Shown one piece after another: positions 47,633-64,000 of a stretch of DNA of 64,000 nucleotides. The number at the start of each line of letters is the position of its first letter. Within the stretch, counting starts at the first letter, position 1. The position numbers and the translations under genes were made by a program. Source of the stretch: Mycobacterium sp. BK086 (GTDB lineage Bacteria > Actinomycetota > Actinomycetes > Mycobacteriales > Mycobacteriaceae); assembly GCA_004362315.1 (NCBI GenBank), contig SNWL01000003.1, forward strand, positions 372,001-436,000. The letters are read 5' to 3'. The notes under the pieces are model-generated. The model saw only the letters and a list, made by a program, of their open reading frames with translations. It was not told the origin of the DNA and did no database searches.

Positions 47633-47654
47633 GGCGCAATGTGAGTGCTACGCC
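47633..47654. promoter_or_regulatory. Island motif, copy 1 (GGCGCAATG-N4-TGCTACGCC)
   Basis: GGCGCAATG at 47633-47641 faces a near-complementary TGCTACGCC at 47646-47654, 62-83 bases upstream of the first island monooxygenase. The same motif (GGCGYAATR / YATTRCGCC) recurs in three other promoter regions of the island, so it is a candidate operator for a common regulator. Confidence 0.45.
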
Positions 47655-47715
47655 TATGACACGGCCGAGTAACGCCTTCCGTCTTCTCTTGAGGACAACA
47701 GCGGAAGGAGAACTT

Positions 47716-49014
47716 GTGACCGAGAAGTTCCATCTGGGTTGGTTTCTGAACTTCGTCGCCGACGAATGGAATGGCAACTGGGGTGACGGGGGGCGCGACT
47801 TCACCGGTGACTTCTACGTCGAGATCGCCAAAGACCTGGAACGGGCGAAATTCGACTACGTACTCATCGAGGACAAGCTCATGGTGTCGACCGCCTACGG
47901 CGGCACCATGGAGTTCGACCTCAAGCACGGTGTCAACCCCAAGCACGACCCCGTGCCGCTTGCCGTGCTGATCGCGGCTGCGACAAAGAATCTCGGGATC
48001 ATCCCCACGATGTCGACGAGCTTCTACCCACCGTTCCTGTTGGCCCGGCTCTGCAGCACCGTCGATCACATCGCGCGCGGCCGGTTCGGCTGGAACGTCG
48101 TGACCTCCGCCGAGGACCGGGCCGCACAGAACTTCGGCATGGACAAGCTCTACGAGCACGACGAGCGCTATGCGATGGCCAGTGAGTACCTGGAGGTGGT
48201 CAGCAAGCTCTGGGAATCGTGGGAGCCCGACGCCGTTGAGCGCGACCATACGACCGGGACCTACGCGAACTACAAGAAGGTCCACACCATCGATTTCCAT
48301 GGCAAGTACTACAAGAGCCGGGGCCCGCTGAACACCGCGCCGTCACCGCAGTACCGGCCCACCATCGCCCAGGCCGGCGCCTCACCGCCCGGACGCGAAC
48401 TGGCCGCCCAGCACGCGGACACCATCGTCGCCCCCGCCAACGGCGCCGAGGCCATGAAGGCCTACCGCGATGACATCCACGAGCGGATGAAGGCCAACGG
48501 GCGCGATCCGTCGGAGTGCAAGGTGCTCTATCTGGTGTCCCCGATCGTGGCCGACACCCACGAGGAGGCGATCGCCAAGCGGGACCGCTGGTTCAACGAC
48601 CCGCAGTACATCGAGTACATGCTCGCCGAGATCTCCTCGATCACCGAGATCGACTTCTCGCAGTTCGATCTCGACCAGCCGGTGCCCAACGTGACGACCA
48701 ACGGTGAACGGGGCTCCCTGGAGAGCTTCCTGGCGCGCGGCAAGGGAAAGACGTTGCGCCAGATCGTCACCGGCAGCGGTCTGACCGCCAACATCCCGTT
48801 CATCGGCACACCGGAGGCGGTCGCCGAGGAGATGGGTGCGCTGATGGACGAGGTCGGCGGCGACGGCTACCTGATAACCAGCCCGGTGATGCGGCTCAAC
48901 CGGCGCTACGTCACCGAGATCACCGACGGCCTGATCCCCGCACTGCAGAAGCGCGGGCTGACCCGCACCGAGTACACGACCACGATGCTGCGAGATACCT
49001 TGCGCGAGTTCTGA
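47716..49014 (+). CDS. NtaA/SnaA/DszA-type FMNH2-dependent monooxygenase 1
   Basis: 432 residues from a GTG with GGAAGGAG upstream. The family N-terminus KFHLGWFLNFVADEW is clear, followed by FDYVLIEDKLMVSTAYGGTME, TMSTSFYPPFLLARL, RFGWNVVTSAEDRAAQNFG and the C-terminal GTPEAVAEEMGALMDEVGGDGY. These two-component enzymes use FMNH2 from a separate reductase to cleave C-N or C-S bonds or hydroxylate. It starts an operon: the RibBA-like gene follows after one base, then an MFS transporter after ten. Confidence 0.92.
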   Translation: MTEKFHLGWFLNFVADEWNGNWGDGGRDFTGDFYVEIAKDLERAKFDYVLIEDKLMVSTAYGGTMEFDLKHGVNPKHDPVPLAVLIAAATKNLGIIPTMSTSFYPPFLLARLCSTVDHIARGRFGWNVVTSAEDRAAQNFGMDKLYEHDERYAMASEYLEVVSKLWESWEPDAVERDHTTGTYANYKKVHTIDFHGKYYKSRGPLNTAPSPQYRPTIAQAGASPPGRELAAQHADTIVAPANGAEAMKAYRDDIHERMKANGRDPSECKVLYLVSPIVADTHEEAIAKRDRWFNDPQYIEYMLAEISSITEIDFSQFDLDQPVPNVTTNGERGSLESFLARGKGKTLRQIVTGSGLTANIPFIGTPEAVAEEMGALMDEVGGDGYLITSPVMRLNRRYVTEITDGLIPALQKRGLTRTEYTTTMLRDTLREF

Positions 49015-49015
49015 T

Positions 49016-50146
49016 ATGACGGTCATCGAAACGCTGGGCTGCGCGGTGGGCACAGCGATGGCGGACCTGCGCGAGGGTCGGATGGTGATCATCGTCGACG
49101 CGGACAATCCCGGCGACGACGGCGACCTGATGCTGGCCGCGGCGCATGCCACGCCCGAACGGGTGGCGTTCATGATGCGCCACACCGGCGGAATCCTGTG
49201 CGTACCGATGCTGTCGGCCGATCTCGACCGGCTGCGGCTGCCACCGATGGTGGCGCACAACGAGGATCCGCGTGGCGTCAGTTACTCGGTGTCGGTCAAC
49301 GCCCGCACCGGCATCACCACCGGCATCTCAGCCGCCGACCGGGCCCGCACGATCGCGCTGCTGGCCGACCCCGCCACCACGCACGACGACTTGATCCGGC
49401 CGGGGCAGGTCTTTCCGCTGCGCGGGGCCGACGGCGGCGTGCTGCGCCGGGCCGGGCACACCGAGGCCGCAGTGGATCTGGCCGAGCTAGCCGGACTCCC
49501 GCCGGTCGCGGTGATCGGCGAAATCCTCGACGACGCAGGCGTTGTGGTGCGGGGGCAGGCACTGTGGACGTTCGCCGAACAGCATGGGCTCACGGTGGTC
49601 ACGATGGCCGACCTGATCACCTATCGGCGGCGCACCGAGCGGCTCGTCGAGTTCAAGGCCGCCAGCCGGCTTCCGACCCGCCACGGTGTGTTTCAGGCGC
49701 ACGGCTTTCGCTCGATCCTGGATGGCCGCGAGCACATCGCTCTGGTGATGGGCGATGTGGCGGGCCGACAGAAATCGCCGACATTGGTGCGCGTGCATTC
49801 GGAGTGTGTGACGGGCAACGTCTTTGACTCCGGCGGCTGCGATTGCGGCCCTTGGCTGGAGCAGGCGATGCAGATGATCGCCGAAGAGGGCCGCGGTGTC
49901 GTGGTCTATCTGCGCGGGGTCGGGGGCCAGCGAGGCTATCGACCGCACGACCCGTCCGCCGATGTACTCGACGCCAGGGAATACGGCCTGGGCGCCCAGA
50001 TCCTGGCCGACCTCGGGGTGCGCCGAATGCGATTGCTGACCAACAACCCCGTCAAGCGGATCGGGTTGGATGCCTACGGTTTGACGATCGCCGGAACCGC
50101 GCGGTTGCGCCCGGCCGTGGCCGATATCTCTGCGGCAGAAGGTTGA
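49016..50146 (+). CDS. Degenerate RibBA-like protein (DHBP synthase / GTP cyclohydrolase II homologue)
   Basis: 376 residues. The RibB half keeps ISAADRA, GHTEA with H148 and E169, but its key acidic loop reads DADNPGDDGD at 28-37 instead of DDEDRENEGD, losing the Arg-Glu pair. The RibA half keeps the zinc Cys C264, C275, C277 and DAREYG, but the canonical RGQEGRGIGL segment and about 25-30 following residues are replaced by GVGGQRGY, and the usual C-terminal tail is missing. Normal riboflavin synthesis activity is doubtful. It is sandwiched between a monooxygenase and a transporter, pointing to a role tied to the island. Confidence 0.85.
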   Translation: MTVIETLGCAVGTAMADLREGRMVIIVDADNPGDDGDLMLAAAHATPERVAFMMRHTGGILCVPMLSADLDRLRLPPMVAHNEDPRGVSYSVSVNARTGITTGISAADRARTIALLADPATTHDDLIRPGQVFPLRGADGGVLRRAGHTEAAVDLAELAGLPPVAVIGEILDDAGVVVRGQALWTFAEQHGLTVVTMADLITYRRRTERLVEFKAASRLPTRHGVFQAHGFRSILDGREHIALVMGDVAGRQKSPTLVRVHSECVTGNVFDSGGCDCGPWLEQAMQMIAEEGRGVVVYLRGVGGQRGYRPHDPSADVLDAREYGLGAQILADLGVRRMRLLTNNPVKRIGLDAYGLTIAGTARLRPAVADISAAEG

Positions 50147-50156
50147 TGGCCTGCTG

Positions 50157-51365
50157 ATGCGTTGCTCCGTCCCACGACGGTACGGGTCGCGGTGGTTCCT
50201 TCCGCTGATGGCCGCCGCCGGCGTCACGATGAGTCTCACCGCTCCCCTGGAAGTGCTGTTCATCCAGGCGGCGTCGGACAGCAGCACCTATATCGGGGTG
50301 TTCATGCTGGCCGCCTGCCTCGGCGTCATCATCGTGGACGTGTTCGGCACCAGGTTCGTCCCCGGGCTCGACGCCAGGGTGGCGCTGACCACCGGGTTGG
50401 CCATGTTCGCGATCGCCTGTATCGGCATGGGCGTTGCCGACGGCGGAGTGCTGCTGATGGCGTCGCGGATGCTGCAGGGGCTGGGCAGCGGGGTGGTGCT
50501 CGGCGCGGGATTGCAGGCCGCGGTGCGCGTTGCACCACGAGTCGAAACACCAATGCCACCAGGGCAATCCGACCCCGATATCGCGCGATGCCTGGCCCGC
50601 TTCAACGCGGCATTCCTGCTCGGCGGGGCGCTGGGCTCGCCGGGTGGTCTGCTCGTCGCCGGCATTGTCGAGGGCAGGGCCGGCTATCAGCTCGCCTTCG
50701 TCGGCACCGGCGTGCTGGCCCTGCTGGTCACCGCTGCGCTGGCGGTGGCACTGCCCAGGCTTGCCGCACCGCCGGGGATCGGGCGGCCGACCGTCGGGCT
50801 GCCACAATTCGTCCGCTCGCCGGGCAGCCGGGCCGCGCTCGTCCTGGCGATGGTCGGCGACTTCCTCAGAGGTGGCGTGTTGTTCACCGCGCTACCGCTG
50901 GCCGGTGCGGTCCGGCACTATCCGGTCAGCACGATCGCGGTGGCCATCGCGCTCATGTCTGTGGCCGAGATCCTGGCACTGCAGATCGCGTACCGCGTGA
51001 TCAACCGCGTGGGTGTGGTGGCCGTGCTGGTGTCCTCGTTCCTGATGGGCACGCTGTGCGCCGCGCTGCTGGCGCTGGAGCCCAGCACCGGAACCTATTT
51101 CGTCGCCTCAACGCTGTTCGGCATCAGCCTGGCGGGCGCGACCGCCAGCCTGCCGGTGCTCGTCGTGGCACAGGTCAGTGAGTCCTCTGCGGGGCTGGCG
51201 AAGTTCCGTATCTCCGCGGGTATCGGCATGCTCGCCGGTTCGGTGGGCTGTGCCGTACTCGCCACCCAGATCAGCATGGCCGGTCTTTTCGCACTGATCG
51301 CGGTGCTTCTGTTGTGCAGCGCACAGTTGGCCCACTTTGTGGGCAAGCGCATGACGGCGGCGTAA
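50157..51365 (+). CDS. MFS transporter
   Basis: 402 residues, 12 predicted membrane helices. The first helices contain PLMAAAGVTMSLTAPLEVLFIQAAS and the loop 2-3 region FGTRFVPGLDARVALTT; the SRMLQGLGSGVVLGAG segment resembles MFS motif C. No binding-residue pattern reveals the substrate. It is in the operon monooxygenase 1-RibBA-like-MFS, 10 bases downstream, so it probably moves the pathway substrate, a product or a flavin-related compound. Confidence 0.88.
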   Translation: MRCSVPRRYGSRWFLPLMAAAGVTMSLTAPLEVLFIQAASDSSTYIGVFMLAACLGVIIVDVFGTRFVPGLDARVALTTGLAMFAIACIGMGVADGGVLLMASRMLQGLGSGVVLGAGLQAAVRVAPRVETPMPPGQSDPDIARCLARFNAAFLLGGALGSPGGLLVAGIVEGRAGYQLAFVGTGVLALLVTAALAVALPRLAAPPGIGRPTVGLPQFVRSPGSRAALVLAMVGDFLRGGVLFTALPLAGAVRHYPVSTIAVAIALMSVAEILALQIAYRVINRVGVVAVLVSSFLMGTLCAALLALEPSTGTYFVASTLFGISLAGATASLPVLVVAQVSESSAGLAKFRISAGIGMLAGSVGCAVLATQISMAGLFALIAVLLLCSAQLAHFVGKRMTAA

Positions 51366-51420
51366 CCGGCGCGAATCAGGTCTGCCAGCAACCGGTAACA
51401 AACTCCTGGTGAAATATCGG

Positions 51421-51440
51421 CAAGGGACTTTGGTCCCCGA
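51421..51440 (+). promoter_or_regulatory. DosR/DevR-box-like palindrome upstream of gntR
   Basis: CAAGGGACTTTGGTCCCCGA matches the DosR consensus TTSGGGACTWWAGTCCCSAA at 15 of 20 positions, with GGGACTTTGGTCCC differing from the core at one base. It is 37 bases before the TTG start of the GntR gene. It could be a DosR site or simply the operator of another dimeric regulator. Confidence 0.4.
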
Positions 51441-51476
51441 TAGTTGGGAATCTGGCCGCCGGGAAGGAGACCTAGG

Positions 51477-52253
51477 TTGGCGCTTCACGACCCAGCGATG
51501 TACGGGAGCTGTCGAGCGGGATATCACCCTCGGGCCGCACTCCGGCCCGAGGTGGTCTATCAGCGCCAGCGCGCCAGCCCGGACCGGCTGAACAACTCCG
51601 CGCGGCGGACCTACGACCTCCTGCGCTCGACCCTGGTCACCACCGGACCCACCATGGCGCTGGTCGAAAGTGAACTGACCGACGCCCTTTCGGCGAGCCG
51701 CAACACGGTACGGGCGGTACTTCAGCAGCTGGCAAGGGAGGGCTTGGTGGTCCGCGAACCCAAGAACGGAACCCGCGCGACGGGCGCGCTGCTGTTGCCG
51801 ATCGACGAGCTCGCACCCGTAGCGTCCCGCCGGCTGGATTACCGATCGCTGGGGTGCCCTCCCCTGGTCCGTGACCGACTGCGCCTCCCGGCGGGGTGGA
51901 CCGTGCTGATGATCGAAAGCCTGATGCTGAAAGACTCATTACCACTGGGCATTTCGGTCAGCTACATCGCGTTGCCGGAGGGCCAGTCGCTCGACATCGA
52001 CATCGACGACTCCGATGTCATCCTGATCCTCGAACGAAAACTGGGTATCCAGATCGGCGGCAGCCACTGCACCATCGGCGCGATCGCCGCCGACGAACAG
52101 AGCGCCGAACTGGTCGACGTGGAGGTCGGTGCTCCGCTGATCTGGCTCGAGGACGTCATCGAGGACGAGCTGGGACAGCCACGGGCGTTGTCGCAGTTGC
52201 GGCTACGCGGCGACCGAGTCGCCTTCTCCGCCACGGCCCGCCGGTTCGCCTAG
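51477..52253 (+). CDS. GntR/HutC-family regulator with UTRA domain
   Basis: 258 residues from an uncommon TTG at 51477, chosen because GGAAGGAG sits at the proper distance and the upstream frame has no other RBS. Winged helix: NNSARRTYDLLRSTLVTTGPTMALVESELTDALSASRNTVRAVLQQLAREGLVVREPKNGT, about 40-100. The UTRA effector domain follows, with PLGISVSYIALPEGQ and ILERKLGIQIGGSHCTIGAIAADEQSAELVDVEVGAPLIWLEDVIEDE. It is likely the local repressor of the monooxygenase island, sensing its substrate. The last 51 bases overlap the convergent MFS gene. Confidence 0.88.
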   Translation: MALHDPAMYGSCRAGYHPRAALRPEVVYQRQRASPDRLNNSARRTYDLLRSTLVTTGPTMALVESELTDALSASRNTVRAVLQQLAREGLVVREPKNGTRATGALLLPIDELAPVASRRLDYRSLGCPPLVRDRLRLPAGWTVLMIESLMLKDSLPLGISVSYIALPEGQSLDIDIDDSDVILILERKLGIQIGGSHCTIGAIAADEQSAELVDVEVGAPLIWLEDVIEDELGQPRALSQLRLRGDRVAFSATARRFA

Positions 52254-53411
52254 CGTCGGCCTGTTCAGGTACCTGCGGCCGACCACAAGTGTGGCGGCCA
52301 GTGTCAGCAGGCCCACCAGAGCCGACACCAGCATGGCGCGCTGCGGGCCCAGCACGCTGGAGGTGACGCCCAGGATCACCATCCCGGTCGGCAGTGCCAG
52401 TCCGATCGTCGTGCTGAGAAGTCCGAGTGCGGCGGCACGTTCATGGATGCCGACCGCCGCCACCGGCAGCGTCGCCTGCGCCGACCCGAACAGCGCCTGC
52501 CCGATTCCGGCGATCCCCAACGCGACCAGCGTCACGCTCAACAGCGGTGTGGCCGCGACGATCCCGAGGCAGCCCAGGCAGAGCGCGACACCGCCGACGT
52601 ACGCGGCCAGCGGACGCCGCACCGGGCGCATCACCAGAGCACTGCCCACCACCAACTGTGCGATCCCGGCCGCCGCACCGATCACGCCTGCCATCGCCGC
52701 ACCCGCGTCGAGATGCTCGGCAATCACCGGAACCAGTGGCAGGAACGCGAAATAGCACAGATTGCAGATCACGGTCACCAGCAGGATCAGGGTCAGCGCC
52801 GGTGAGCGGGACAGCAGCCGCCAGTCAGTGCCCTGCCGCACCGGCACCGCGGCGAGCCTCGGCGGGGCATAGCGCCGGGTCGACGTCCAGAACAGCAGCA
52901 CCGAGCCGGCGAGCAGCGCCGCGGGAACGCCGAATGCCACCCCGAGGCCGAAGACCGAAATCGTGAGCCCTCCGAGCAGAGGCCCCAGCATCATGGCGGC
53001 GGCCATGCTCGTCACTTCGATGTTGAGCACCCGAGTCGCGCGGTCCGGGCCGGCGAGACGGAACAGCAGCTCCCGCTGAGCGGTCATGTTGACCATGCCA
53101 CCGAATCCGTAGGCCAGTTCGAACGGATAGATCATCCACATCGACACCGCCCCGGTGGACACCAGCACGGTCATGAGCACCGACACCGGCAGCAGCACGA
53201 GCTCGGTCACGAAAACCATGGTGCGAGGCTCGATATCGGATCGCGACGAGAAGTAGGCACCCGCGAGCATCGGCGCGAACATGGCCACCCCGACGAATTG
53301 GTTCGCGATCGGCGGACCACCGAGGTGGGTCACCAGGTAGGTGCCCAGGAACAGCCCGTTCCATCGGGTCAGGTGCCACATCCACGAGCTGACGAGCAGA
53401 GACGGCACCAA
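52203..53411 (-). CDS. MFS transporter (EntS/MFS_3-like)
   Basis: 402 residues, 11-12 membrane helices. The frame opens with TTG (53411) or GTG (53408), immediately after the DppB-like permease stop, with 3 bases between, so translation is probably coupled. MFS signatures include YFSSRSDIEPRTMVF and FGSAQATLPVAAVGIHERAAALGLLSTTIG. It resembles EntS-type exporters. Last gene of the minus-strand operon ATPase-monooxygenase-permease-permease-MFS; it may export the end product or an unwanted metal/chelate. Confidence 0.86.
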   Translation of the reverse strand: MVPSLLVSSWMWHLTRWNGLFLGTYLVTHLGGPPIANQFVGVAMFAPMLAGAYFSSRSDIEPRTMVFVTELVLLPVSVLMTVLVSTGAVSMWMIYPFELAYGFGGMVNMTAQRELLFRLAGPDRATRVLNIEVTSMAAAMMLGPLLGGLTISVFGLGVAFGVPAALLAGSVLLFWTSTRRYAPPRLAAVPVRQGTDWRLLSRSPALTLILLVTVICNLCYFAFLPLVPVIAEHLDAGAAMAGVIGAAAGIAQLVVGSALVMRPVRRPLAAYVGGVALCLGCLGIVAATPLLSVTLVALGIAGIGQALFGSAQATLPVAAVGIHERAAALGLLSTTIGLALPTGMVILGVTSSVLGPQRAMLVSALVGLLTLAATLVVGRRYLNRPTLGEPAGRGGEGDSVAA

Positions 53412-53414
53412 GTT

Positions 53415-54419
53415 CTACAGCGCCACTCTCGGATCGGCGAGCGATTGCATCATGTCGATGACGATATTGGTCACCACGTAGAGCGCACCGACCGCCAGCG
53501 TCACCCCGGCGATGGCGTTGAAGTCCGCCTTGTCGATGGCGCGCGATATGTAGAGACCGATTCCCGGTCGGGCGAAGATCAATTCGACAAGGATGCAGTT
53601 GCCGACCATCAACGCGAGCTGCAACCCCAGCAGGGCCAGTACCGGACCCACCGAGTTGCGCAGTGAGTGCACCACCACAATTCGCTTCTCCGACAACCCG
53701 ATCGAGCGCGCAGTTCGGGTGTGATCGGCCCGCAACGTCGCTTCCAGGCTGCTCCGCAGGACACGACCCACCGCGACCGCGGGGGTCAACGCCAGGCAGA
53801 ACGCCGGCAGCAGAAGGTGATAGATGTCGTCGGCGAAGATGTCCGGGCGGCCGGCCAACAGACTGTCGATCAGCAGGAAGTGCGTCGGTCCCGTCGGGGC
53901 GTCGACGTACGACGTCTGGCCGGTCACCGGCAGAATATTCAGCCACCGGTAGAAGACCAGCATGCCCAGCAGGCAGGCCAGGAACACCGGCACCGACGCG
54001 CCCGACACCATGACCACCCGGAGCACTCCCGAGCCACGCCAGCCCTGTGCGGTGATGAGGCCCAGCACGAAGCCGATGACCACGGTGAAAATCATTGCGG
54101 CGAAGAGCAACTCCAGTGTCACCGGCAGGAAGCTAGCCAGGTCAGACAGCACCGGGGTCCGAGTGACGGTCGACTGACCGAGGTCACCGGTGACCGCCTT
54201 GGTGAGGTAGTTCCAGAACTGCATGGGCAGTGGCTGATCCAGGCCGAGCTGGTGCCGCGCGGCCGCATAGACCTCGGGAGAAGCCTTGGCGCCCACCAGG
54301 GCTGCGATCGGGTCGACCGGCGCCAGCTTCTGCAAGGAGAACACCGCCAGGACGAGCATGATCAGCACCGGGATCGCGCCGAGCAGCCGGCGGGGCAGGA
54401 CCGTGAGGATGGCGAGCAT
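53415..54419 (-). CDS. ABC transporter permease, DppB-like
   Basis: 334 residues from an ATG at 54419 overlapping the DppC-like stop by one base (TGATG). N-terminal helix PRRLLGAIPVLIMLVLAVFSL, then the typical DppB loop LGLDQPLPMQFWNYLTKAVTGDLGQS and the cytoplasmic EAA-type region LRSSLEATLRADHTRTARSIGLSEKRIVVVHSLRNSVGPVLALLG. Six membrane helices. Part of an oligopeptide/nickel-type importer whose binding protein is encoded at 59843-61465. Confidence 0.93.
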   Translation of the reverse strand: MLAILTVLPRRLLGAIPVLIMLVLAVFSLQKLAPVDPIAALVGAKASPEVYAAARHQLGLDQPLPMQFWNYLTKAVTGDLGQSTVTRTPVLSDLASFLPVTLELLFAAMIFTVVIGFVLGLITAQGWRGSGVLRVVMVSGASVPVFLACLLGMLVFYRWLNILPVTGQTSYVDAPTGPTHFLLIDSLLAGRPDIFADDIYHLLLPAFCLALTPAVAVGRVLRSSLEATLRADHTRTARSIGLSEKRIVVVHSLRNSVGPVLALLGLQLALMVGNCILVELIFARPGIGLYISRAIDKADFNAIAGVTLAVGALYVVTNIVIDMMQSLADPRVAL

Positions 54420-55297
54420 CAGCGGTCCCGAATCCGGTCGCGGATCGCGTCGCCGGCGAAGTTGGCGACCAGCGCGATCACCGCGACACCGACCGCGGGC
54501 ATGATCGGAATCCACCACGCGCTGAAGATGTAGGTGACACCCTGCGCGCTCATCGATCCGAGTTCGGGTGCGGGCTGGGGAGCACCGAGTCCGAGGAATG
54601 ACAATCCCGCCACAATCAGGACCAGGGCCGCGATGTCCAGGCTCAGGGTGACAATCGTCACCGGAATCGCGCCGGGCAGCAGATGCCGGTACATCAACCG
54701 CCACCGGCCGATTCCGCCTACCCGGGCCGCCTCCATGTGCGGTGAGGCCCGAAGCCTGCGCACCTCGGCCCGCACGATGCGGGTGTACAGCGGCCACCAC
54801 ACGATCGCCACCCCGATCAGGGTGTGCGTGTAGGACCGGCCGAGCGCGGCGACGACCGCCAGCGCGAGGATCGGCCCGGGCAGCGCCAGGAACGCGTCGG
54901 TCACCCGCATCAGGACGGCGTCGACCCAGCCGCCGCGGGCGCCGGCGACCAGGCCGACGAGGCCGCCGAAGATCGCGCCGAACGCACCCACCCCGAGCGC
55001 ACCCCACCAGCTGGACTGCATGCCGACCAGCACCCGGCTGAAGATGTCGCGACCGACGGTGTCGGTGCCGAACAGGTTGGCGCCGTTCGGGGCCGCCATC
55101 GGCTGGCCGACCACCGCCAGCGGATCATACGGCGCGATGTGGGCGGCGAAGATGGCCAGGACGAACATGGCGGCCAGCCCGCCGAACGCGACGTAGTTGG
55201 GTACCGATGTGCCCTGGAAATACTGCCGGACGCCCAGCCCGAGCCGGCTGCGATACCGGACGAGTGGAGTCGGTACGTAATATTCGGCGACCGCCAT
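54419..55297 (-). CDS. ABC transporter permease, DppC-like
   Basis: 292 residues. N-terminal OppC-like segment and FGTDTVGRDIFSRVLVGMQSSWWGALGVGAFGAIFGGLVGLVAG, the hallmark of DppC proteins, then the EAA region VRAEVRRLRASPHMEAARVGGIGRWRLMYRHLLPGAIPVTIVTLSLDI. Good RBS (GAGGAGAACTCC). It starts 28 bases after monooxygenase 2 in the same operon. Together with the DppB-like permease it forms the channel of the importer. Confidence 0.93.
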   Translation of the reverse strand: MAVAEYYVPTPLVRYRSRLGLGVRQYFQGTSVPNYVAFGGLAAMFVLAIFAAHIAPYDPLAVVGQPMAAPNGANLFGTDTVGRDIFSRVLVGMQSSWWGALGVGAFGAIFGGLVGLVAGARGGWVDAVLMRVTDAFLALPGPILALAVVAALGRSYTHTLIGVAIVWWPLYTRIVRAEVRRLRASPHMEAARVGGIGRWRLMYRHLLPGAIPVTIVTLSLDIAALVLIVAGLSFLGLGAPQPAPELGSMSAQGVTYIFSAWWIPIMPAVGVAVIALVANFAGDAIRDRIRDR

Positions 55298-55325
55298 GGA
55301 GTTCTCCTCGTTTCGTTGTGCCGGA

Positions 55326-56642
55326 TCAGAATTCGCGCAGCGTCTCGCGCAGGGTGGACGTGCTGTACGACGTGCGGGTCAGCCCCAGCCGTTGCAGCTC
55401 GGGCACCAGGCCGTCGGTGATGGACGCGATGTAGTTGCGGTTGAGGTCCCAGCCGGGCTTCATGATCAGGAACCCGTCGCCACCGATCTCCTCCATCGCC
55501 TCGCCCATCTTGCGTGCGACCGTCTCGGGCGTGCCGACGAATTCCACGCCCGTGGTGGCCCAGTCGACGGCCAGCTGGCGAAGCGTCTTCGGTCCCGGGC
55601 TGCCGTCGCCGCGCATGAAATGCTCGAGTGAGCCACGTTCCCCGTTGGTCGTCAGGTCCTCGGGAAGTGGTTGGTCCCAGTCGAATTGCTTAAAATCGAT
55701 CTCGGTGTTCGACGCGATGCTGACCAGTTGCTTCTCCACATAGCTCCGGGTCGCCGTGAGACGGTCGATATCGGCGCGCGCCTCCTCCTCGGTCGCGGCG
55801 ACGACAGGCGATACGCAGAACATCAGTTTGATGTCGTCAGGATCGCGCCCGGCCTCGGCAGCCCGCTTACGAATATCGTTGCGGTAGGACCGCATTCCCT
55901 CGACTCCGGTGCCGACGGCGACGATCGCGTCGGCCGCGCGGGCAGCGAAGGCGCGCCCCCGCGGCGACGCGCCGGCCTGCAGGATCGTCGGCTTGTGCTG
56001 CGGTGAGGGCACCGTGTTCAACGGACCGCGGGACTTGAAGTACTTACCGACGAAGTCGACGGTGCGGACCTTCTTGTAGTCGGCATAGGTGTGGGTCTCG
56101 CGGTCCATGACCACCGCATCGGCATCCCAGGAATCCCACAGCTCGCAGACCAGGTCGTAGTACTCGTCGGCCACGTTGTAGCGCTCGTCGTGTTCGGGCA
56201 GTGCATCCAGACCGAAGTTCTGCGCCGCGCGGTCTTCGGCCGAGGACACGATGTTCCAGCCGAACCGGCCCCCGGCGATCGAATCGACCGTGGAGGCCAA
56301 CCGGGCCAACAGGTACGGCGGATAGAACGATGTCGACATCGTCGCCACCACACCAAGGTTGGACGTGTTCGCCGCGATCAGCACCGCGAGCGGCACCGGG
56401 TCGTGTTTGGGGGCGAAGATCGAATTCTTCAGCGCCCCTTCCATGGTGCCGCCGTATGCGTCGGCGACCATGACGGTGTCTTCGATCATGATGAAGTCGA
56501 AGCAGGCGCGCTCCATGCTGCGGGCCATGTCCACATAGAACCGCCCATTGGACCAGTTCGCCACGTCCGGGGATGCCCACGGGGAATCCCATTCGGGCGG
56601 AATGAAATTCATGAACCAACCGAGGTGGAACTTGCTCGCCAT
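55326..56642 (-). CDS. NtaA/SnaA/DszA-type FMNH2-dependent monooxygenase 2
   Basis: 438 residues from an ATG with GAGGAG seven bases upstream. Family start KFHLGWFMNFIPPEW, then FDFIMIEDTVMVADAYGGTME, TMSTSFYPPYLLARL, RFGWNIVSSAEDRAAQNFG, and the C-terminal GTPETVARKMGEAMEEIGGDGFLIM. It lies between the fused ATPase gene and the permeases of the importer in one operon, which ties its substrate to the imported compound. Similar in architecture to monooxygenase 1 but clearly diverged, so probably acting on a different step. Confidence 0.92.
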   Translation of the reverse strand: MASKFHLGWFMNFIPPEWDSPWASPDVANWSNGRFYVDMARSMERACFDFIMIEDTVMVADAYGGTMEGALKNSIFAPKHDPVPLAVLIAANTSNLGVVATMSTSFYPPYLLARLASTVDSIAGGRFGWNIVSSAEDRAAQNFGLDALPEHDERYNVADEYYDLVCELWDSWDADAVVMDRETHTYADYKKVRTVDFVGKYFKSRGPLNTVPSPQHKPTILQAGASPRGRAFAARAADAIVAVGTGVEGMRSYRNDIRKRAAEAGRDPDDIKLMFCVSPVVAATEEEARADIDRLTATRSYVEKQLVSIASNTEIDFKQFDWDQPLPEDLTTNGERGSLEHFMRGDGSPGPKTLRQLAVDWATTGVEFVGTPETVARKMGEAMEEIGGDGFLIMKPGWDLNRNYIASITDGLVPELQRLGLTRTSYSTSTLRETLREF

Positions 56643-56678
56643 TACCTACTCCTCTTCCTTGTTGATGTCGTCATGCCA

Positions 56679-58646
56679 CTACGCCAGCAGGAGTTCCTCG
56701 GGCTGCCCGGTCGCGAGCAGACATGCCGCCATGTGCCTGCTGGTGCCGTCGATCGACAGCAGCTGCGGGGACTGGTTGGTGCACCGGTCGATCCGTTCCG
56801 GGCAGCGCGGATGGAACGCGCATCCGGTGGGCACCGCCAGCGGGCTCGCGGGCTCGCCCGCCAGCCGAACCGGTGCGGCTCCCGGGGACGGCACGGCCGC
56901 CAGCAGCGCCTTGGTGTAGGGATGTTTCGGGCTGTTGATCAGGTCCTCGGTGGGGGCGACTTCGACGATCTGTCCGAGGTACATCACCGCGATGCGGTCC
57001 GAAATGAACCGCGCGGCAGCCAGGTCATGCGTGACGAACATGACGGCCATGCCCAATTCCCGGCGCAGGTCCTGCAGCAGGTTGAGCACCGACGCGGCCA
57101 AGGAGGCGTCCAGCGCCGACGTCGGCTCGTCGCACAGCAACAGTTGCGGTGGCACGATGATCGCGCGGGCCAACGCCACCCGCTGACGCTGGCCACCGGA
57201 CAGCAGACTCGCCTTGATGGCGGCGACGTCCGGCGGCAGCCCGACCTGGCGCAGGACTTCGTCGACGCGCTCACGGCGCTCGGCTCGCCCGGTGGTCTTG
57301 AGTAGCCGCTCACCAACGAGCTCGCCGACCGTCATCCATGGCGTCAGCGAGGCACCGGCGTCCTGGAACACCACCTGGGGGCGATTGCCGGTGTGCTCGA
57401 CGCTGCCGCCGTCGGGATCGAGCAGCCCGGCGACCACCCGCAGCAATGTCGACTTCCCCGAACCTGATTCGCCCACCACGGCGATCGACTCCCCCGGCGC
57501 CACATCGAGGATGACATGTCGAAGGGCATGCAGGGCATCGCGCTTCAGAAGGCCGCGACTGACCCCGAACTGCTTGTCGACTCCGTTGATCTGCAGCACG
57601 GGCCGGTCTTCGTCGACGGGCGGCATCGGCGCGAACGAGCGGGTCTCGGAACGGGAATGCGTTGCCGCGGCCGCATTCTCGACAATGCATGCCACCAGCC
57701 CGGGATGGCTGCTCGCCGGTACCGGCTCGGGAAGGCTCTGCGAGCACGGCTCGATCACCGCAGGACAGCGCGGTGCGAACGCACATCCGGCCGGGTGGTT
57801 GCGCGGATCGGGTGGCTGGCCCGGCAGCGCGGCGATCGCCTGTCCCAGCGGAAGGTCAAGATCCAGACGCGAATTCAGCAACCCCATGGTGTAGGGATGC
57901 GACGGGGCGGCCAGCACGTCGTCCATCGCGCCGAACTCGGCGAGCCGGCCGCCGTACATGACTGCGACGCGGTCGCAGATCTGGGAGGCGACACCGATGT
58001 CGTGGGTCACGACGATGAACGAGGTGCCCAGCTCGTTGCACAGATCCCGCAGCAGGGCCAGCACCTGCGCCTGCACCGTCACGTCCAGCGCCGTGGTGGG
58101 TTCGTCGGCGATCACCAGATCGGGTTTTCCCGCCACTGCCATGGCGATCATGACCCGCTGGCGAAGACCGCCCGACAGTTCATGGGGATAGGCCTTCATC
58201 CGCCGCACCGGATCCGGCACACCGACGAGATCCAGCAGGCGCCGGGCCTCCTCGGAATCACCAGCCGCCTCGGTGATCTGCCTGCCCACCCGCATCGTGG
58301 GATCCAGGGACGTCATCGGGTCCTGAAACACCGCACCCAGGTGTGCCTTGCGCACCTGACGGCGTTCCTCGGGACTGGCCGCCACCATGTCCACCCCGCA
58401 CACCTCGGCGCGGCCCGTGACGATCGGCGCGGGCTCACCGGCCAACAGCCCGAGCAGCGCAAGGCCCATCACGCTCTTGCCCGACCCCGACTCCCCCACC
58501 AAGGCCAGCACCTCGCCGGGCAGGACATCCAGGCTCAGCCCGCGCAGCGCGTGCACATCGACTCCGCGACGCTGAAAAGTGACGTGGAGATCCTGTACCC
58601 GCGCCCTCGGCTCGATCCCGGGGATGTCATTCGATGCGTTGTCCAT
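56679..58646 (-). CDS. Fused double ABC ATPase (DppD-DppF type)
   Basis: 655 residues from an ATG at 58646 (RBS AAGGGCG). Two complete nucleotide-binding domains: Walker A 51-58 and 392-399 (GESGSGKS twice), signatures LSGG at 157-160 and 482-485, Walker B with D181-E182 and DEP near 506. Each half ends with the oligopeptide-type C-terminal region (HPYT... CAFAPRCP and [11 protein letters not shown]) that may bind an FeS cluster or metal. It powers the DppBC-like permeases. In many species the two halves are separate genes. Confidence 0.94.
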
Positions 58647-58775
58647 AACTGCGCCCTTGTTCTGCGGGAGTTTCGACCAGGTGGTGAAGCTACGAGCGCA
58701 GCCGCCGTGGGCCGCTCGGACACCATCAGCAAAGCGGCACCGCATGACGCGTCCACGTCACCGACGTGTCGAACG

Positions 58776-58873: not shown

Positions 58874-59359
58874 ATGACCGTCGTTGTCGTAGGAAACCCC
58901 AAGCCCATGTCGCGGACCCGAGCCGCGGCCGAATTGGTCGCGCACAAGCTGACCGGCGTTGCCCCCCAGCATGTTATCGACGTCGTCGATCTCGGGCCGG
59001 GGCTGCTCGGCTGGGGCGACCCCGCGGTGGCCGCCGCCAAGGAGATCGTGAAGTCGGCGGACTCACTGGTGGTCGCGTCGCCGACGTTCAAGGCCACCTA
59101 TACCGGGTTGTTGAAGTTGTTCCTCGACCAGTTCGGGCAGGGCGAGCTGAACGGCATCACCACCTACCCGCTAATGCTCGGCGCATCCCAGATTCATGCG
59201 CTGGCACCGGAACTCACGCTGCGTCCGGTGCTCGTCGAGATCGGCGCGAGCTGTCCGGCCCCGAGCCTGTACCTGCTCGACTCCGAGTACGAGACATCGC
59301 CGGATCTCGACAAATGGCTCGAGCTGGCCCGCCGCTTCGCCCCGCAGGTGTCGGCATGA
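58874..59359 (+). CDS. NAD(P)H-dependent FMN reductase (flavodoxin-like, SsuE/MsuE type)
   Basis: 161 residues. Flavodoxin-like fold: TVVVVGNPKPMSRTRAAAELV holds the FMN phosphate loop, VVASPTFKATYTGLLKLFLDQFG is the FMN-ring loop signature of SsuE-type enzymes, and TYPLMLGAS continues the core. It would supply FMNH2 to the island's monooxygenases. Its last four bases overlap the start of a second, structurally unrelated flavin reductase. The RBS is not obvious. Confidence 0.9.
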   Translation: MTVVVVGNPKPMSRTRAAAELVAHKLTGVAPQHVIDVVDLGPGLLGWGDPAVAAAKEIVKSADSLVVASPTFKATYTGLLKLFLDQFGQGELNGITTYPLMLGASQIHALAPELTLRPVLVEIGASCPAPSLYLLDSEYETSPDLDKWLELARRFAPQVSA

Positions 59360-59856
59360 TCACCGCGGTCGACGGCAGGTTCGACCAGGCCCTGCTGCGT
59401 CAGGCGTTCGGCTGCTTCCCCAGCGGGGTGACCGCGTTCTGCGGTATGCGGGACGGCGTGGCCGAAGGCATGGCGGCAAGCTCGTTCACCACGGTCTCGC
59501 TCGACCCGCCGCTGGTGTCGGTGTGCGTCGCGAACACGTCGTCCACGTGGCCGAAACTGGCCGGCCTGCAACGCCTGGGCCTCTCGGTGCTCGCCGACGA
59601 GCACGCGCTGGTCGCCCGCTCACTGTCAGCCAAGAACGGCGACCGCTTCCGCGATGTCGACTGGACCTCCACCGAGAGCGGAGCCGTGTTCGTGCACGGC
59701 TCCACCCTGTGGCTGGAGTGCGCGCCGTTCAAACGGATCGAGGCCGGCGACCACCAGATCGTGGTGCTGCAGATCACCGCTCTGGCGGTGTATCCCGACG
59801 TGTCACCAATCGTGTTTCACCGCAGCGGCTTTCGTGAACTGGTCACGCCCGCTTGA
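59356..59856 (+). CDS. Flavin reductase-like protein (HpaC/NtaB split-barrel family)
   Basis: 166 residues from an ATG overlapping the upstream TGA (ATGA). Split-barrel reductase features: LRQAFGCFPSGVTAFCG, AEGMAASSFTTVSLDPPLVSVCV, the LGLSVLADEH strand and IEAGDHQIVVLQITALAV at the end, where the GDH motif contacts NAD(P)H in relatives. It is the usual reductase partner of NtaA-type monooxygenases. The 3' end overlaps the binding-protein gene by 14 bases. Confidence 0.9.
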   Translation: MITAVDGRFDQALLRQAFGCFPSGVTAFCGMRDGVAEGMAASSFTTVSLDPPLVSVCVANTSSTWPKLAGLQRLGLSVLADEHALVARSLSAKNGDRFRDVDWTSTESGAVFVHGSTLWLECAPFKRIEAGDHQIVVLQITALAVYPDVSPIVFHRSGFRELVTPA

Positions 59857-61465
59857 GTGACTGCGGCCAGAAGATCGCCGGATAGAAGGAATTGTCCTCC
59901 ACGCCGGACACATAGCTGTGCGAGATCGTGGAGTTCGGCGGCAGGCACAGCGGGATCCACAGGGCATCGTCGAGGATGATCTTGCTGCACTGCACATAGG
60001 TGGCCTGGGTCTCCTCCGGAGTCTGCGCCTGTACCGCCTTGTCCATGAGTGCGTCCAGCTCGGGGTTCGAATACTGGTAGAAGTTCAGGGGCTTGGCACC
60101 GGTGCGCGCGAGGATGCGGAAGGTGGTGTCCAGGTGCAGCGCATCACCGCCGAGGAAGCTCACCATCATGTCGGGCCGCTTCTCAGGCGGCTGGTTGGCC
60201 AGGTCGAATTGCTCGGAGACCGGGATGGTCCGCACGGTGACATCGAAACCGTATGCCGCGAGCTGGGTTTGGAGGAGTTCGGTCATCTGCTGGCGCGGCG
60301 CTCCGCCGTCCGCACTCCACGCCAGATCGATCTTCTTCGACGGCAGTGATCCCACCAGGGCCTTCAACGCCGCCCCGTCGACCTGACTGGGGAACGGCGC
60401 CAGGGTCGAGGAGAACGTCTGGTCCGGCCACATGCCCTTCTGCACGCTGGTGAGGCCGCCCCATGAGGTGGTGACCACCGATTCGCGGTCCAGCGCGGTC
60501 AGCATCGCCTGGCGCAGCGCCTTGTTGGCGAAGATCCCCGAGGTCGGGTTCAGCCAGACCGCCTCGCCGACACCACCGAAGGAGTTGACCACCGTGAAGG
60601 CCGAATTCTTCTGATAGGTCAGCACATCGGGGATCGCGAAACCCTTGGTGACCAGATCGAAGGCACCGGAGTCCAGTTGGAGCTTCTGGGTCGCGACACT
60701 GGGGGTGATGTCGATGCGTAGGGTCTTGAAAGTCGGCTTGGGGCCCCAGTAATCAGGGAAGGCCTCGAGCAGGTAGTGGCTGCCCGCCACGAATTCCTTG
60801 AACATGTAGGGCCCGGTGCCCGCGTCGTTGGTCTTGAGCCATTCCTGCGCCAGGTCGTCGCCGACGGCGTTCTTGGCGACCGCGGTGGGGCTGACCGCGA
60901 ACGGCTGCCACGGACAGGCCATGTAGTGGATGAAGGCGTTGTTGCGTTCCTTGAGGGTGACGACGAACGTGGTGGGGTCGGGAGCGTCGGTCTTGACCAC
61001 ACCGGCCACCATGTAGGCCGGGCCCTGATCCACTTTCGCCCGCCGCTCAAAGCTTTTCACCCAGGATGCGGCGTCGGCGGGGGTGCCGTCGTGGAACTTC
61101 ACACCGGGTTGCAGGGTGAAGGTGTAGGTGAGCTGGTCCGGTGAGACGGTCCACGACTTGGCCAGGTTGCCGATGATCGTCGACGAGCCGGGCTGGTAAC
61201 GCACCAGACCCTCGTAGGCCGACTCCATCACCTGGACACCCTCGCCCTCGTACATGATGTCGGGGTCGGGCACCTGCATATCGGCGAGGAACGGCATGCG
61301 CAGGTTGAGGGTTCCGCCGTTGCTGGTGGTGCCGGGTCCGCCGCACGCCGCTAGCCACGACGCCAGTCCCAGACCGCCGACGGTGATGCCGCCGGCCTTG
61401 AGGAAGGCGCGCCGGTTCCACTCGGGGCCGGTGATCCGGGTCCCGGAATTCCTGTTGTCGTTCAT
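59843..61465 (-). CDS. ABC transporter substrate-binding lipoprotein, DppA/family 5 (Tat-type signal)
   Basis: 540 residues from an ATG with GGAGG at the ideal distance. The N-terminus has a twin-arginine-type NRRAFLKAGG and a lipobox LAAC (about residue 41), so it is exported and lipid anchored. The mature part is a family 5 solute-binding protein: WTVSPDQLTYTFTLQPGVKFHDGTPADAASWVKSFERR, NNAFIHYMACPWQPFAVSPTAV. It should capture the compound taken in by the DppBC-like permeases. A copy of the island motif lies upstream. A comparable oligopeptide-type system takes up EDTA in another bacterium (from memory), a parallel only. Confidence 0.93.
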   Translation of the reverse strand: MNDNRNSGTRITGPEWNRRAFLKAGGITVGGLGLASWLAACGGPGTTSNGGTLNLRMPFLADMQVPDPDIMYEGEGVQVMESAYEGLVRYQPGSSTIIGNLAKSWTVSPDQLTYTFTLQPGVKFHDGTPADAASWVKSFERRAKVDQGPAYMVAGVVKTDAPDPTTFVVTLKERNNAFIHYMACPWQPFAVSPTAVAKNAVGDDLAQEWLKTNDAGTGPYMFKEFVAGSHYLLEAFPDYWGPKPTFKTLRIDITPSVATQKLQLDSGAFDLVTKGFAIPDVLTYQKNSAFTVVNSFGGVGEAVWLNPTSGIFANKALRQAMLTALDRESVVTTSWGGLTSVQKGMWPDQTFSSTLAPFPSQVDGAALKALVGSLPSKKIDLAWSADGGAPRQQMTELLQTQLAAYGFDVTVRTIPVSEQFDLANQPPEKRPDMMVSFLGGDALHLDTTFRILARTGAKPLNFYQYSNPELDALMDKAVQAQTPEETQATYVQCSKIILDDALWIPLCLPPNSTISHSYVSGVEDNSFYPAIFWPQSLKRA

Positions 61466-61526
61466 GAATGCCTCCTGCTCGGCTGGTTGCGACGAGTTAA
61501 ACGTGACTGGATGACACGGCCGCGTC

Positions 61527-61551
61527 GCCGCAATGCACCGCGTATTACGCC
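61527..61551. promoter_or_regulatory. Island motif, copy 3 (GCCGCAATG-N7-TATTACGCC)
   Basis: GCCGCAATG at 61527-61535 faces TATTACGCC at 61543-61551, in the 94-base gap between monooxygenase 3 and the binding-protein gene, 62-86 bases before the latter's ATG. The same half-site order and similar spacing as copy 1 suggest a bound dimer and an independent promoter for the binding protein. Confidence 0.5.
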
Positions 61552-61559
61552 GGTGAGTC

Positions 61560-62873
61560 CTAGAATTCGAGGAGATTCTCGCGGAAGGTGCGGTGGGAAT
61601 AGCCATCTCGGATCAGCCCGCGCTTACGCAGGGCCGATGCGAGACCGTCGGCGATCTCGGCGATGTTGCGCCGCGTCACCACCGGCGACAGTAGGAAACC
61701 GTCACCGCCGACTTCCTCCATGGCCTCACCCATCTTGGCCGCGACGGTGTCCGGGGATCCGACGAATGCCAGTCCCGCGTGGGTGTCGACGGTGGCAATC
61801 GCCTCCCGCAGGGTCTTGCCCCGCGCGCCCTCGATGAACGTGCGCAACGTGCTGGTCTCCCCGTTCCCCCACACGTCGGGCACTTCCTTGTCGAGATCGA
61901 AGGTGGAGAAGTCGAACTCCCCACCCGAGGTGTAACTCAGCCCCCACAAGGCCTTTTGGATGGCATGCTCGCTCCACCGGGCCGCCGCCATGTCCTCCTC
62001 GCGGGCCTGTGCCACCCGGTCGGTGTCGCCGAGGATGGGGTCGATCAGGAACAGGATCTTCAGTGTGCTGGGGTCGCGGCCGTACTCGCGCATCCGCCGG
62101 TGCATATCCAGCCGGAACGCTTTCATCGACTCGATGCTGGTGCCATGGGCCAGCATCGACTCGGCGTACTTGGCGGCCAGATCCCGCCCCGCCGGGGAGG
62201 CGCCGGCCTGCACGATCACCGGCCTGCGCTGCGGGCCGGGAATGGTGTTCAGCGGACCGCGGGTGCGGAAGTACTTGCCGTCGAAGTCGACGGTGTGCAC
62301 TTTGGTGTGGTCGGCATAGCGCGGCGTTTCCTGATCGACGAGCACACTTCCCGGCTCCCACGAGTCCCACAGCGCACCAACGGCTTCCATCCACTCCTTG
62401 GCCATCTCGTAGCGTTCGCTGTGCAGCATCAGGTCGTCGTAACCGTACTGCTGAGCGGCCCGTGCCGAGCTGCCGGTGACGACGTTGAGGCCCACCCGGC
62501 CCTCGGTCAGGTGATCCAGCGTGGTCATGGTCCTGGCGGCCATGTACGGGTGGTAGAAGCTCGTCGACAACGTCACCGCGATGCCGATGTTCCTGGTGCG
62601 CTGGGTCAGCAGCGGAATCAGCGGAACCGGATCGCATTTGGGGGCCAGTATGCCGTACTTCAAGGTGGTTTCCATCGATCGGCCGTAGGCGTCCTCGACC
62701 ATGCTGGTGTCCTCGACCAGCAGGTAGTCGAAACACGCTCGCTCCAGTGATGCGGCCAGGTCGACGAACAGGTCACCGCGCATCCAGTCGTGGCCGGTGC
62801 TGCCCGCCCACGGATCGAGCGCCCAGGTCTGCACGCTGAAACCGCTGCCCATGAACCAACCGAGATGAAACAT
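61560..62873 (-). CDS. NtaA/SnaA/DszA-type FMNH2-dependent monooxygenase 3
   Basis: 437 residues from an ATG with AAGGAGG upstream. N-terminal FHLGWFMGSGFSVQTWALDPWAGS is more diverged than in the other copies. Family blocks follow: FDYLLVEDTSMVEDAYGRSME, TLSTSFYHPYMAARTM, RVGLNVVTGSSARAAQQYG and GSPDTVAAKMGEAMEEVGGDGFL. Divergent from monooxygenase 4 across a motif-containing spacer and upstream of the binding-protein gene on the same strand. FMNH2 would come from the reductase pair at 58.9-59.9 kb. Confidence 0.9.
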   Translation of the reverse strand: MFHLGWFMGSGFSVQTWALDPWAGSTGHDWMRGDLFVDLAASLERACFDYLLVEDTSMVEDAYGRSMETTLKYGILAPKCDPVPLIPLLTQRTRNIGIAVTLSTSFYHPYMAARTMTTLDHLTEGRVGLNVVTGSSARAAQQYGYDDLMLHSERYEMAKEWMEAVGALWDSWEPGSVLVDQETPRYADHTKVHTVDFDGKYFRTRGPLNTIPGPQRRPVIVQAGASPAGRDLAAKYAESMLAHGTSIESMKAFRLDMHRRMREYGRDPSTLKILFLIDPILGDTDRVAQAREEDMAAARWSEHAIQKALWGLSYTSGGEFDFSTFDLDKEVPDVWGNGETSTLRTFIEGARGKTLREAIATVDTHAGLAFVGSPDTVAAKMGEAMEEVGGDGFLLSPVVTRRNIAEIADGLASALRKRGLIRDGYSHRTFRENLLEF

Positions 62874-63086: not shown

Positions 63087-64000
63087 ATGGCGAAGAAGAT
63101 GCATCTCGGCTGGTTCATGAATTACGCTCCGCCGCAATGGCTGAACCCGTTCGACCGGGTGAACTCGTCATGGGCGAACGCCGACTTCCACATCGAGATG
63201 GCCAAGATGCTCGAGGGCGCCTGCTTCGACTACCTCATGATCGAGGACACGCTGATGGTGTCCAATGCGTTCGGCAATTCCACCGAGGCCGCGCTCAAGC
63301 ATGCGCTTCAGGTGCCCAAGCTGGACGCCACCGTGCTGGCCGGGGCGGTCGTCAAGGCGACGACCAAGCTCGGTGTGATCGCCACCGCGTCGATCCTGTC
63401 CTATCCGCCGTTCACGCTGGCCCGGATGATCGCCAGCCTCGACCACCTCTCCGACGGGCGATTCGGCTGGAACATCGTCACCTCAGGTGAAGAGCAGGCC
63501 GCGCACAACGTGGGGCTCGACGCCCTACCGCCGCGGCAGGTGCGCTACGACATGGCCGACGAGTTCGTCGAGGTGGTCACCAAGCTGTTGGCCTCGTGGG
63601 ATGAGGGCGCCGTGGTGATGGATCGCGAGTCGGGGACCTACGTCGACCACACCAAGGTTCACGAGGTGAACTTCGTCGGCAAGTTCTACAAGTCACGCGG
63701 CCCGCTCAACGTTCCGCGCACCCCGCAGGGCCGACCGGTGTATCTACAGGCGGGCGGCTCCCCGCGCGGACGGCAGTTCGCCGCCGAGACAGCCGATTCC
63801 ATCGTCGCGATCGCCGAAGGCATCGACGGAATGATCGACTACCGCAACGACATCCGGGCCCGCGCGCAGGCCGCCGGCCGCAATCCCGACGACATCAAGG
63901 TGATGTTCCTGGTGACCCCGGTACTGGGTGACAGCGCCGCGGACGCCGAGGCCAAGCGGTACTCGATGGTCAACACCGATGCGTTCATCACCAGCCAGCT
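63087..64000 (+). CDS. NtaA/SnaA/DszA-type FMNH2-dependent monooxygenase 4 (cut by window end)
   Basis: About 304 residues are visible from an ATG at 63087. The family start KKMHLGWFMNYAPPQW is followed by FDYLMIEDTLMVSNAFGNSTE, VIATASILSYPPFTLARM, RFGWNIVTSGEEQAAHNVG, KSRGPLNVPRTPQGRPVYLQAGGSPRGR and MFLVTPVLGD. Full-length relatives here are 432-438 residues, so about 130 residues lie outside. Fourth member of the family in the island, divergent from monooxygenase 3. The RBS is weak (GGTGAAG). Confidence 0.92.
   Translation, partial: MAKKMHLGWFMNYAPPQWLNPFDRVNSSWANADFHIEMAKMLEGACFDYLMIEDTLMVSNAFGNSTEAALKHALQVPKLDATVLAGAVVKATTKLGVIATASILSYPPFTLARMIASLDHLSDGRFGWNIVTSGEEQAAHNVGLDALPPRQVRYDMADEFVEVVTKLLASWDEGAVVMDRESGTYVDHTKVHEVNFVGKFYKSRGPLNVPRTPQGRPVYLQAGGSPRGRQFAAETADSIVAIAEGIDGMIDYRNDIRARAQAAGRNPDDIKVMFLVTPVLGDSAADAEAKRYSMVNTDAFITSQ

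Follow-up and report, generated by a model that had tools for sequence, protein, structure and literature searches.

What does a gene for riboflavin biosynthesis do inside a monooxygenase cluster once both of its active sites have been altered? The question is raised by a gene at 49016..50146 (forward strand) of a 64,000-nucleotide stretch of Mycobacterium sp. BK086, hereafter referred to as the window, in which the open reading frame and domain searches delineate a 376-aa RibB-RibA fusion. This RibBA-like gene and its orthologues are designated here as the window type (n=24 including the own genome; L206, at 59% identity, is included in these counts). Pfam searches detected DHBP_synthase (PF00926; 243.5 bits, 1.6e-72) and GTP_cyclohydro2 (PF00925; 162.6 bits, 7.7e-48) in one chain, and PDB 4i14, which we take to be M. 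tuberculosis RibBA, aligned with residues 11-360 of 376 (E 9.6e-113). The protein remained below the cut-offs of the NCBIfam RibBA equivalog NF006803 (458.4 bits, cut-off 569) and of NCBIfam ribA (120 bits, cut-off 206), and exceeded that of NCBIfam ribB (TIGR00506; 208 bits, cut-off 177). It shares 54% identity with the normal RibBA of its own genome. The AlphaFold model (pLDDT 55, pTM 0.42) was too weak for use.

RibBA genes in the host and in related genomes

Searching the own genome with PF00925 revealed four places. Besides the gene of the window, these are a normal RibBA gene at C1:309939-311057 with an adjoining lumazine synthase gene, a second degenerate RibBA gene at C4:181598-182620 in a mel2-like locus (L041), and a GTP cyclohydrolase II-like gene (L004:730-3269; C4:542975) with another ORF directly 3'. 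The normal copy rules out that the gene of the window is the only RibBA in its genome, and is the second, canonical ribBA whose existence had been left as a question in an earlier note based on the DNA letters. The second degenerate copy has as neighbours a luciferase-like monooxygenase (LLM) gene, a reductase gene and genes for an alpha/beta hydrolase and an SDR-like protein; the flavin reductase that precedes RibBA in the related locus L040 was not found within 6 kb in L041 (8233-14904). The L004 gene pair presumably belongs to a URC1/URC4-type uracil pathway, the GTP cyclohydrolase II-like gene being of the URC1 type. The identification of the RibBA-like gene as a URC1-type pyrimidine enzyme was rejected, since that enzyme is seemingly encoded by this separate gene in the same genome.

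Whole-protein searches identified the window type in 4/60 genomes of the same genus, including the own genome, and in 24/396 when a larger draw of the genus was used. Across 298 genomes of the order, high scores among the matches listed occurred only in the own genome and in G053, the next match listed (394 bits) being a copy with normal motifs. A scan of genome contigs for the loop pattern described below returned 58 stretches, 13 with orthologues, all titled Mycobacterium or Mycolicibacterium; because these 13 of 58 pattern matches are preselected for the loop, all loop statistics are based on the 24 whole-protein orthologues. In each of the 24 window-type genomes, a RibB-domain copy at another place scores higher (at least 279.7 bits), and in all 24 this copy encodes the normal loop R-E-N-E-G-D.

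Alterations in the two catalytic halves

Residues were compared between the 24 orthologues and 27 normal RibBA sequences from the order. In the RibB half, the acidic loop D-D-E-D-R-E-N-E-G-D of normal RibBA has become D-A-D-N-P-G-D-D-G-D at residues 28-37 (49097..49126; this and all other features of the gene lie on the forward strand), a change already reported in the earlier note and confirmed by the comparison. The Arg and Glu of this loop have roles in the RibB site. The Arg, invariant in normal copies (27/27), is Pro in 23/24 orthologues, and the Glu that follows it, also found in 27/27 normal copies, is D in 11, G in 6, H in 3, Y in 2, S in 1 and E in 1 of the 24. With G, S, H or Y in 12/24, the variability of this first-Glu position speaks against one common metal-dependent reaction. 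The loop Asn and the second Glu are each changed to Asp in 21/24 orthologues, and the entropy of the loop is 0.73, as compared to 0.14 in normal copies. The His of RPGHVFPL, present in 27/27 normal copies, varies as well (H 15, Q 4, Y 4, N 1; n=24), with Gln at residue 131 of the window protein (49406..49408). Other residues are retained, including Asp28 (24/24), Asp37 (22/24), His148 of GHTEA (49457..49459; 24/24), Glu150 (24/24) and Glu169 (23/24).

In the RibA half, the active-site loop of GTP cyclohydrolase II, from EGRGIGL through LPADARDY, is reduced to a remnant of 19 residues with an altered sequence (residues 300-318; 49913..49969), a net loss of 18 from the 37 found in 27/27 normal copies. 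The earlier note had rightly noticed that this segment was changed, and its estimate of 25-30 replaced residues was too high. The GVGGQRGY that it proposed as a replacement motif is not conserved, since the remnant differs among orthologues and ranges from 10 to 36 residues. The three zinc cysteines C264, C275 and C277 (motif at 49805..49846) and Glu263 occur in 24/24 orthologues, and the DAREYG motif (49970..49987) keeps Asp319 in 22/24 and Arg321 in 23/24, so that the residues listed as retained in the earlier note, His148 and Glu169 among them, were found to be so. Lys347 is present in 19/24. The Arg of the SxRCDC zinc motif is gone in 23/24 orthologues, a change that, like that of the RPGHVFPL His, goes unmentioned in the earlier note, and the C-terminal tail of normal RibBA is missing from the RibBA-like protein. 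Both altered loops were unseen in the 27 normal RibBA compared, which agrees with the earlier view that they are not a normal feature of this enzyme. The most divergent orthologue, L206 (G532:C79; 59% identity), carries the loop ADAEDSGAAPDL, most of the loop being lost, and may be decaying or serve a different role.

Selective constraints

Whole-gene dN/dS values (NG86) ranged from 0.068 to 0.237 in 12 orthologue pairs and from 0.023 to 0.23 when the halves were considered separately, as compared to 0.036-0.093 for normal copies (5 pairs). No internal stop was found in the matched part of 24/24 orthologues. The low dN/dS indicates purifying selection on the gene and, with the open frames, led to the rejection of a pseudogene.

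Constraints are unevenly distributed between the two halves, as suggested by mean column entropies, the pocket columns being chosen from general knowledge of the structure. In the 24 orthologues, the RibB pocket motifs (acidic loop excluded) have an entropy of 0.30, as compared to 0.78 in the remainder of RibB, a contrast similar to that of 13 diverse normal copies (0.39 against 0.88), and none of 20,000 column shufflings was equally low. The RibA zinc motif is no more conserved than the rest of its domain (0.81 against 0.81), whereas it stands out in normal copies (0.11 against 0.82); column shuffling gave fractions of 0.51 for the zinc motif and 0.30 for all RibA motifs together. Columns invariant in normal copies are kept in 90% of the orthologues for 22/25 RibB pocket positions against 32/49 in the rest (p 0.053, borderline), and for 17/33 positions of the RibA motifs against 25/32 elsewhere (p 0.038). 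By these measures, the RibA site is lost with its surroundings relaxed, and the RibB pocket is still under selection. Given a variable remnant loop and a zinc motif whose conservation is down to the domain average, the RibA half looks like one in which the active site was lost and the fold kept, not like a rebuilt site. The earlier preference for repurposing over random decay is upheld in so far as low dN/dS argues against chance or decay, and does not extend to the RibA half. In 13 MelJ-type copies (see below), the corresponding entropies are 0.46 against 0.89 for the RibB pocket and 0.49 against 0.85 for the zinc motif.

Gene neighbourhood

The gene directly upstream, LLM1 (47707..49014, forward strand; longest ORF from 47641), encodes an NtaA/DmoA-family FMN-dependent monooxygenase. 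Its end at 49014 is separated by 1 base from the RibBA-like gene, which is followed after 10 bases by the ORF of an MFS transporter (MFS1; 50157..51365, forward strand), a tight arrangement correctly described in the earlier note. Domain searches identified further downstream a GntR-UTRA regulator (51444..52253, forward strand), a second MFS transporter (MFS2; 52203..53411, reverse strand), two ABC permeases (BPD_transp_1; 53415..55297, reverse strand), a second NtaA/DmoA-family monooxygenase (LLM2; 55326..56642, reverse strand), an ABC ATPase with oligo_HPY domains (56679..58745, reverse strand), an NADPH-dependent FMN reductase (PF03358; 58874..59359, forward strand) and an SBP_bac_5 solute-binding protein (59843..61606, reverse strand). 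A flavin reductase-like gene (59353..59856, forward strand; start approximate) was recognised from PF01613 in its 90% identical relative L035:172-714. LLM3 (61560..62873, reverse strand) was assigned by its match to solved monooxygenases, and LLM4 (63087..64000, forward strand) continues past the end of the window and is whole in L045:5088-6395. The region 53415-64000 is one cluster that combines an oligopeptide-type ABC transporter and two flavin reductases with more monooxygenase genes of the NtaA/DszA type.

In 23/24 orthologue loci, the gene immediately upstream is an LLM gene in the same orientation, and five of these loci have a second LLM gene between LLM1 and the RibBA-like gene. The exception is L206, where no LLM gene was found within 6 kb and two flavin-reductase genes are adjacent on the opposite strand. 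MFS1 is the next gene in 19/24 loci, the GntR gene comes next in 22/24, and the whole block of MFS2, two ABC permeases and LLM2 occurs in 14/24 including the window, some contigs ending early. Flanks differ between genomes while the cluster genes are kept, so the cluster would appear to have moved. LLM1 itself is found at >=78% identity in 35/396 genomes. Twelve of these 35 are without a window-type gene, and the stretch around LLM1 contained no RibBA-like gene (only ~0.5 kb downstream being covered in L212), so the RibBA-like gene is dispensable for LLM1 as such.

The best matches of LLM1 among solved structures are DszA, YtnJ/MoxC and DmoA, with riboflavin lyase coming 10th of 12 solved sequences. 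A role in riboflavin catabolism (Rca), for which the earlier note had drawn a parallel with Microbacterium, was rejected on the basis of this ranking; the main text of PMC12746152 contains neither 'ribBA' nor 'cyclohydrolase'.

Degenerate RibBA copies elsewhere and their phylogeny

In addition to the window type and to the normal copy counted once for each genome, 30 extra RibBA copies were identified, with two partial-looking matches in G023 kept apart. Among the first 27, 23 have lost both sites and four are intact. Using LLM and reductase profiles seeded partly from loci later counted, we found LLM, flavin reductase or FMN reductase genes within 5 kb of 21/23 degenerate copies and 24/24 window-type genes, as well as of 3/4 intact extra copies, 1/20 normal copies and 2/40 arbitrary places, the last having been added because the 20 normal loci mostly represent one conserved operon context. 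The remaining three extra copies (G062, a partial G059 copy and the second of G078) and the two G023 matches show intact motifs in the parts that were covered, and their surroundings up to 5 kb contain neither LLM nor reductase genes. With these, intact extra copies near such genes went from 3/4 to 3/6, plus one of G078's two copies, and the degenerate counts were unchanged; at only 3/6, a general rule of recruitment for FMN supply does not hold. Degenerate copies share ancestry, 13/23 forming one MelJ-type clade, and the neighbourhood counts are therefore not independent events. A phylogenetic pair test of the neighbourhood link yielded one independent pair on supported branches and three on all branches (sign test p = 1), too few for more than counts to be given here.

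Trees were built with the changed segments masked. The window type forms one clade, with an SH-aLRT of 100 in a tree with 15/24 members and support of 100/100 in a 39-row tree comprising 10/24 window-type, 13 MelJ-type, 13 normal and three intact extra copies, from which 10 long-branched degenerate copies were left out. In this 39-row tree, the window-type clade is joined by L164-L166 (97/90), intact extra copies from monooxygenase or flavin-reductase neighbourhoods, and the next branch to join is C_L179 (98/95), the one copy of the normal set with an adjoining flavin reductase gene. The best tree separates the window type from the MelJ clade; a single clade of both degenerate groups was not rejected (p-AU 0.206). 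This topology fits, and does not prove, a scenario in which intact RibBA genes were recruited to flavin-monooxygenase operons and their activities were then lost.

Two further arrangements were observed. In L164:4701-9287 (G041), the neighbours of an intact extra RibBA gene are a flavin reductase, an isochorismatase and a RutA-like monooxygenase that scores below the RutA cut-off, and this RibBA is likely an FMN-supply copy in an operon resembling those for pyrimidine use. In another family of the order, L042:8322-10409 and L044:9751-11859 contain an FMN reductase and a flavin reductase followed directly by a degenerate RibBA gene, and no LLM gene was found within 6 kb of either.

Possible function of the window-type protein

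The window type is best explained as a RibBA paralogue that has left riboflavin synthesis and would serve as an accessory of an FMNH2-monooxygenase cluster, probably derived from a RibBA copy once recruited to supply FMN; we give this reading a probability of about 0.55. A part in riboflavin synthesis is disfavoured because both sites are without residues found in all 27 normal copies and each of the 24 genomes has a copy with the normal loop. An intact RibBA copy would initially have been recruited to a flavin-monooxygenase operon and raised FMN supply, as in lux-rib operons; the riboflavin chemistry would then have been lost and the RibB pocket given another role for the monooxygenase cluster. 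With its monooxygenases, flavin reductases and transporters, the cluster looks catabolic in gene content.

What this other role might be can be phrased only tentatively, which also applies to the new activity or flavin-sensing role suggested in the earlier note. The leading candidate is an altered reaction of the RibB type, in which a small substrate or product from the monooxygenase pathway would be converted; Asp34, Asp35, Asp37, His148 and Glu169 would then belong to the pocket, and the RibA half would have a structural part. The retained RibB pocket and its new acidic loop lead us to slightly favour such a reaction over pure binding or sensing. A stronger form of this proposal is doubtful, namely that the DHBP-synthase fold was turned into a different enzyme acting on an FMNH2-monooxygenase intermediate, the Ru5P loop having moved from DDEDRENEGD towards DAENPDDDGD, with the remaining pocket fully constrained and the GCHII half serving only as a scaffold that holds zinc. 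Somewhat unlikely as well, the protein may be a non-catalytic accessory in which both halves are pseudoenzymes, binding FMN, a flavin precursor or a sugar phosphate so as to sense, store or hand over flavin. Such a role would accommodate the alteration of both riboflavin sites, the free variation at one loop position, the kept zinc cysteines and a dN/dS of 0.07-0.24, as well as the adjoining monooxygenase gene and the flavin reductases and GntR-UTRA regulator of the cluster; however, the RibB pocket is as strict as in normal enzymes, beyond the needs of scaffolding, which binding could also explain.

That a live RibB half still makes DHBP next to a dead RibA half, thereby boosting FMN for the cluster, appears improbable. 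The TIGR00506 score and the conserved RibB pocket motifs are consistent with it, as is PDB 6mnz, a fusion deposited as DHBP synthase whose RibA half is without cysteines at the aligned zinc positions. These observations have to be set against the replacement of the loop Arg by Pro (23/24), the loss of the next Glu in 23/24 with no acidic residue in 12, and the Gln in place of the pocket His in the window protein, while a DHBP boost alone would leave the GTP-derived precursor unraised. Least probable of all is that the gene once supplied FMN and is now a remnant subject to drift, which translational coupling maintains or which has only recently fallen out of use. The relaxation of the RibA motifs to background, the absence of the gene beside LLM1 in 12/35 genomes, and L206 with most of its loop lost and no LLM gene within 6 kb would all be expected of a remnant, but not the lack of internal stops in 24/24 orthologues, the dN/dS of 0.023-0.23 in either half, or a RibB pocket and three cysteines that are invariant or nearly so. 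A phosphonothrixin-type target copy conferring self-resistance (PMC12268802) was also considered, and no support for it was found.

The reading of these genes as accessories of monooxygenase clusters has practical consequences, since homology labels them RibBA and models of metabolism and of drug targets would take them for riboflavin enzymes, though they are probably not. Degenerate RibBA genes beside FMNH2 monooxygenases or flavin reductases include MelJ/RibA1, and the question becomes which role a RibB-type pocket plays in a flavin-dependent monooxygenase pathway.

Comparison with known systems

Bifunctional RibBA enzymes such as PDB 4i14 have both domains and the three zinc cysteines in common with the RibBA-like protein, which differs from them by the loss of the acidic-loop Arg-Glu and of the zinc-motif Arg, by its changed pocket His and by a GCHII loop shorter by 18 residues. 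RibBX is a RibB with a degenerate C-terminal domain; the RibA half of the RibBA-like protein is similarly without GCHII residues, but it has retained the zinc cysteines, and the RibB loop has changed as well. In LuxH and lux-rib operons, a riboflavin-type gene lies beside a luciferase-like monooxygenase gene, as observed here. The riboflavin genes of these operons are taken to be active, in contrast to the RibBA-like gene with its altered active sites. Arabidopsis RIBA2 and RIBA3, as described in PMC3509567, are RibBA paralogues that became monofunctional by losing one of the two activities, whereas both sites are altered in the RibBA-like protein. Judging by titles and the beginnings of abstracts, nothing on degenerate RibBA beside monooxygenases was recognised in the literature searched, apart from mel2.

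MelJ/RibA1 (Rv1940, mel2), the known parallel in mycobacteria, is likewise a RibB-RibA fusion in degenerate form whose gene has a luciferase-like monooxygenase gene nearby, and it is ~40% identical to the RibBA-like protein. The degenerate RibBA of L041 is of this MelJ type, and the assignment of single L041 genes to mel2 Rv numbers is provisional. Published work describes mel2 as Rv1936-Rv1941 (PMC1793995, PMC11036813), likens MelJ to LuxH (PMC1793995) and indicates that mycobacterial RibA1 was unable to replace RibA2 under the conditions tested (PMC11302143). MelJ-type genes have hydrolase and SDR genes as neighbours, as seen at L041, while the window type is accompanied by MFS and GntR genes, the mel2 hydrolase and SDR genes being absent among the scanned genes of 47641-61606. 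The zinc cysteines are kept in both groups (13/13 MelJ-type, 24/24 window type), and the two differ in what remains of the RibB pocket, His148 being found in 0/13 MelJ-type and 24/24 window-type copies, and the His of RPGH in 13/13 and 15/24, respectively.
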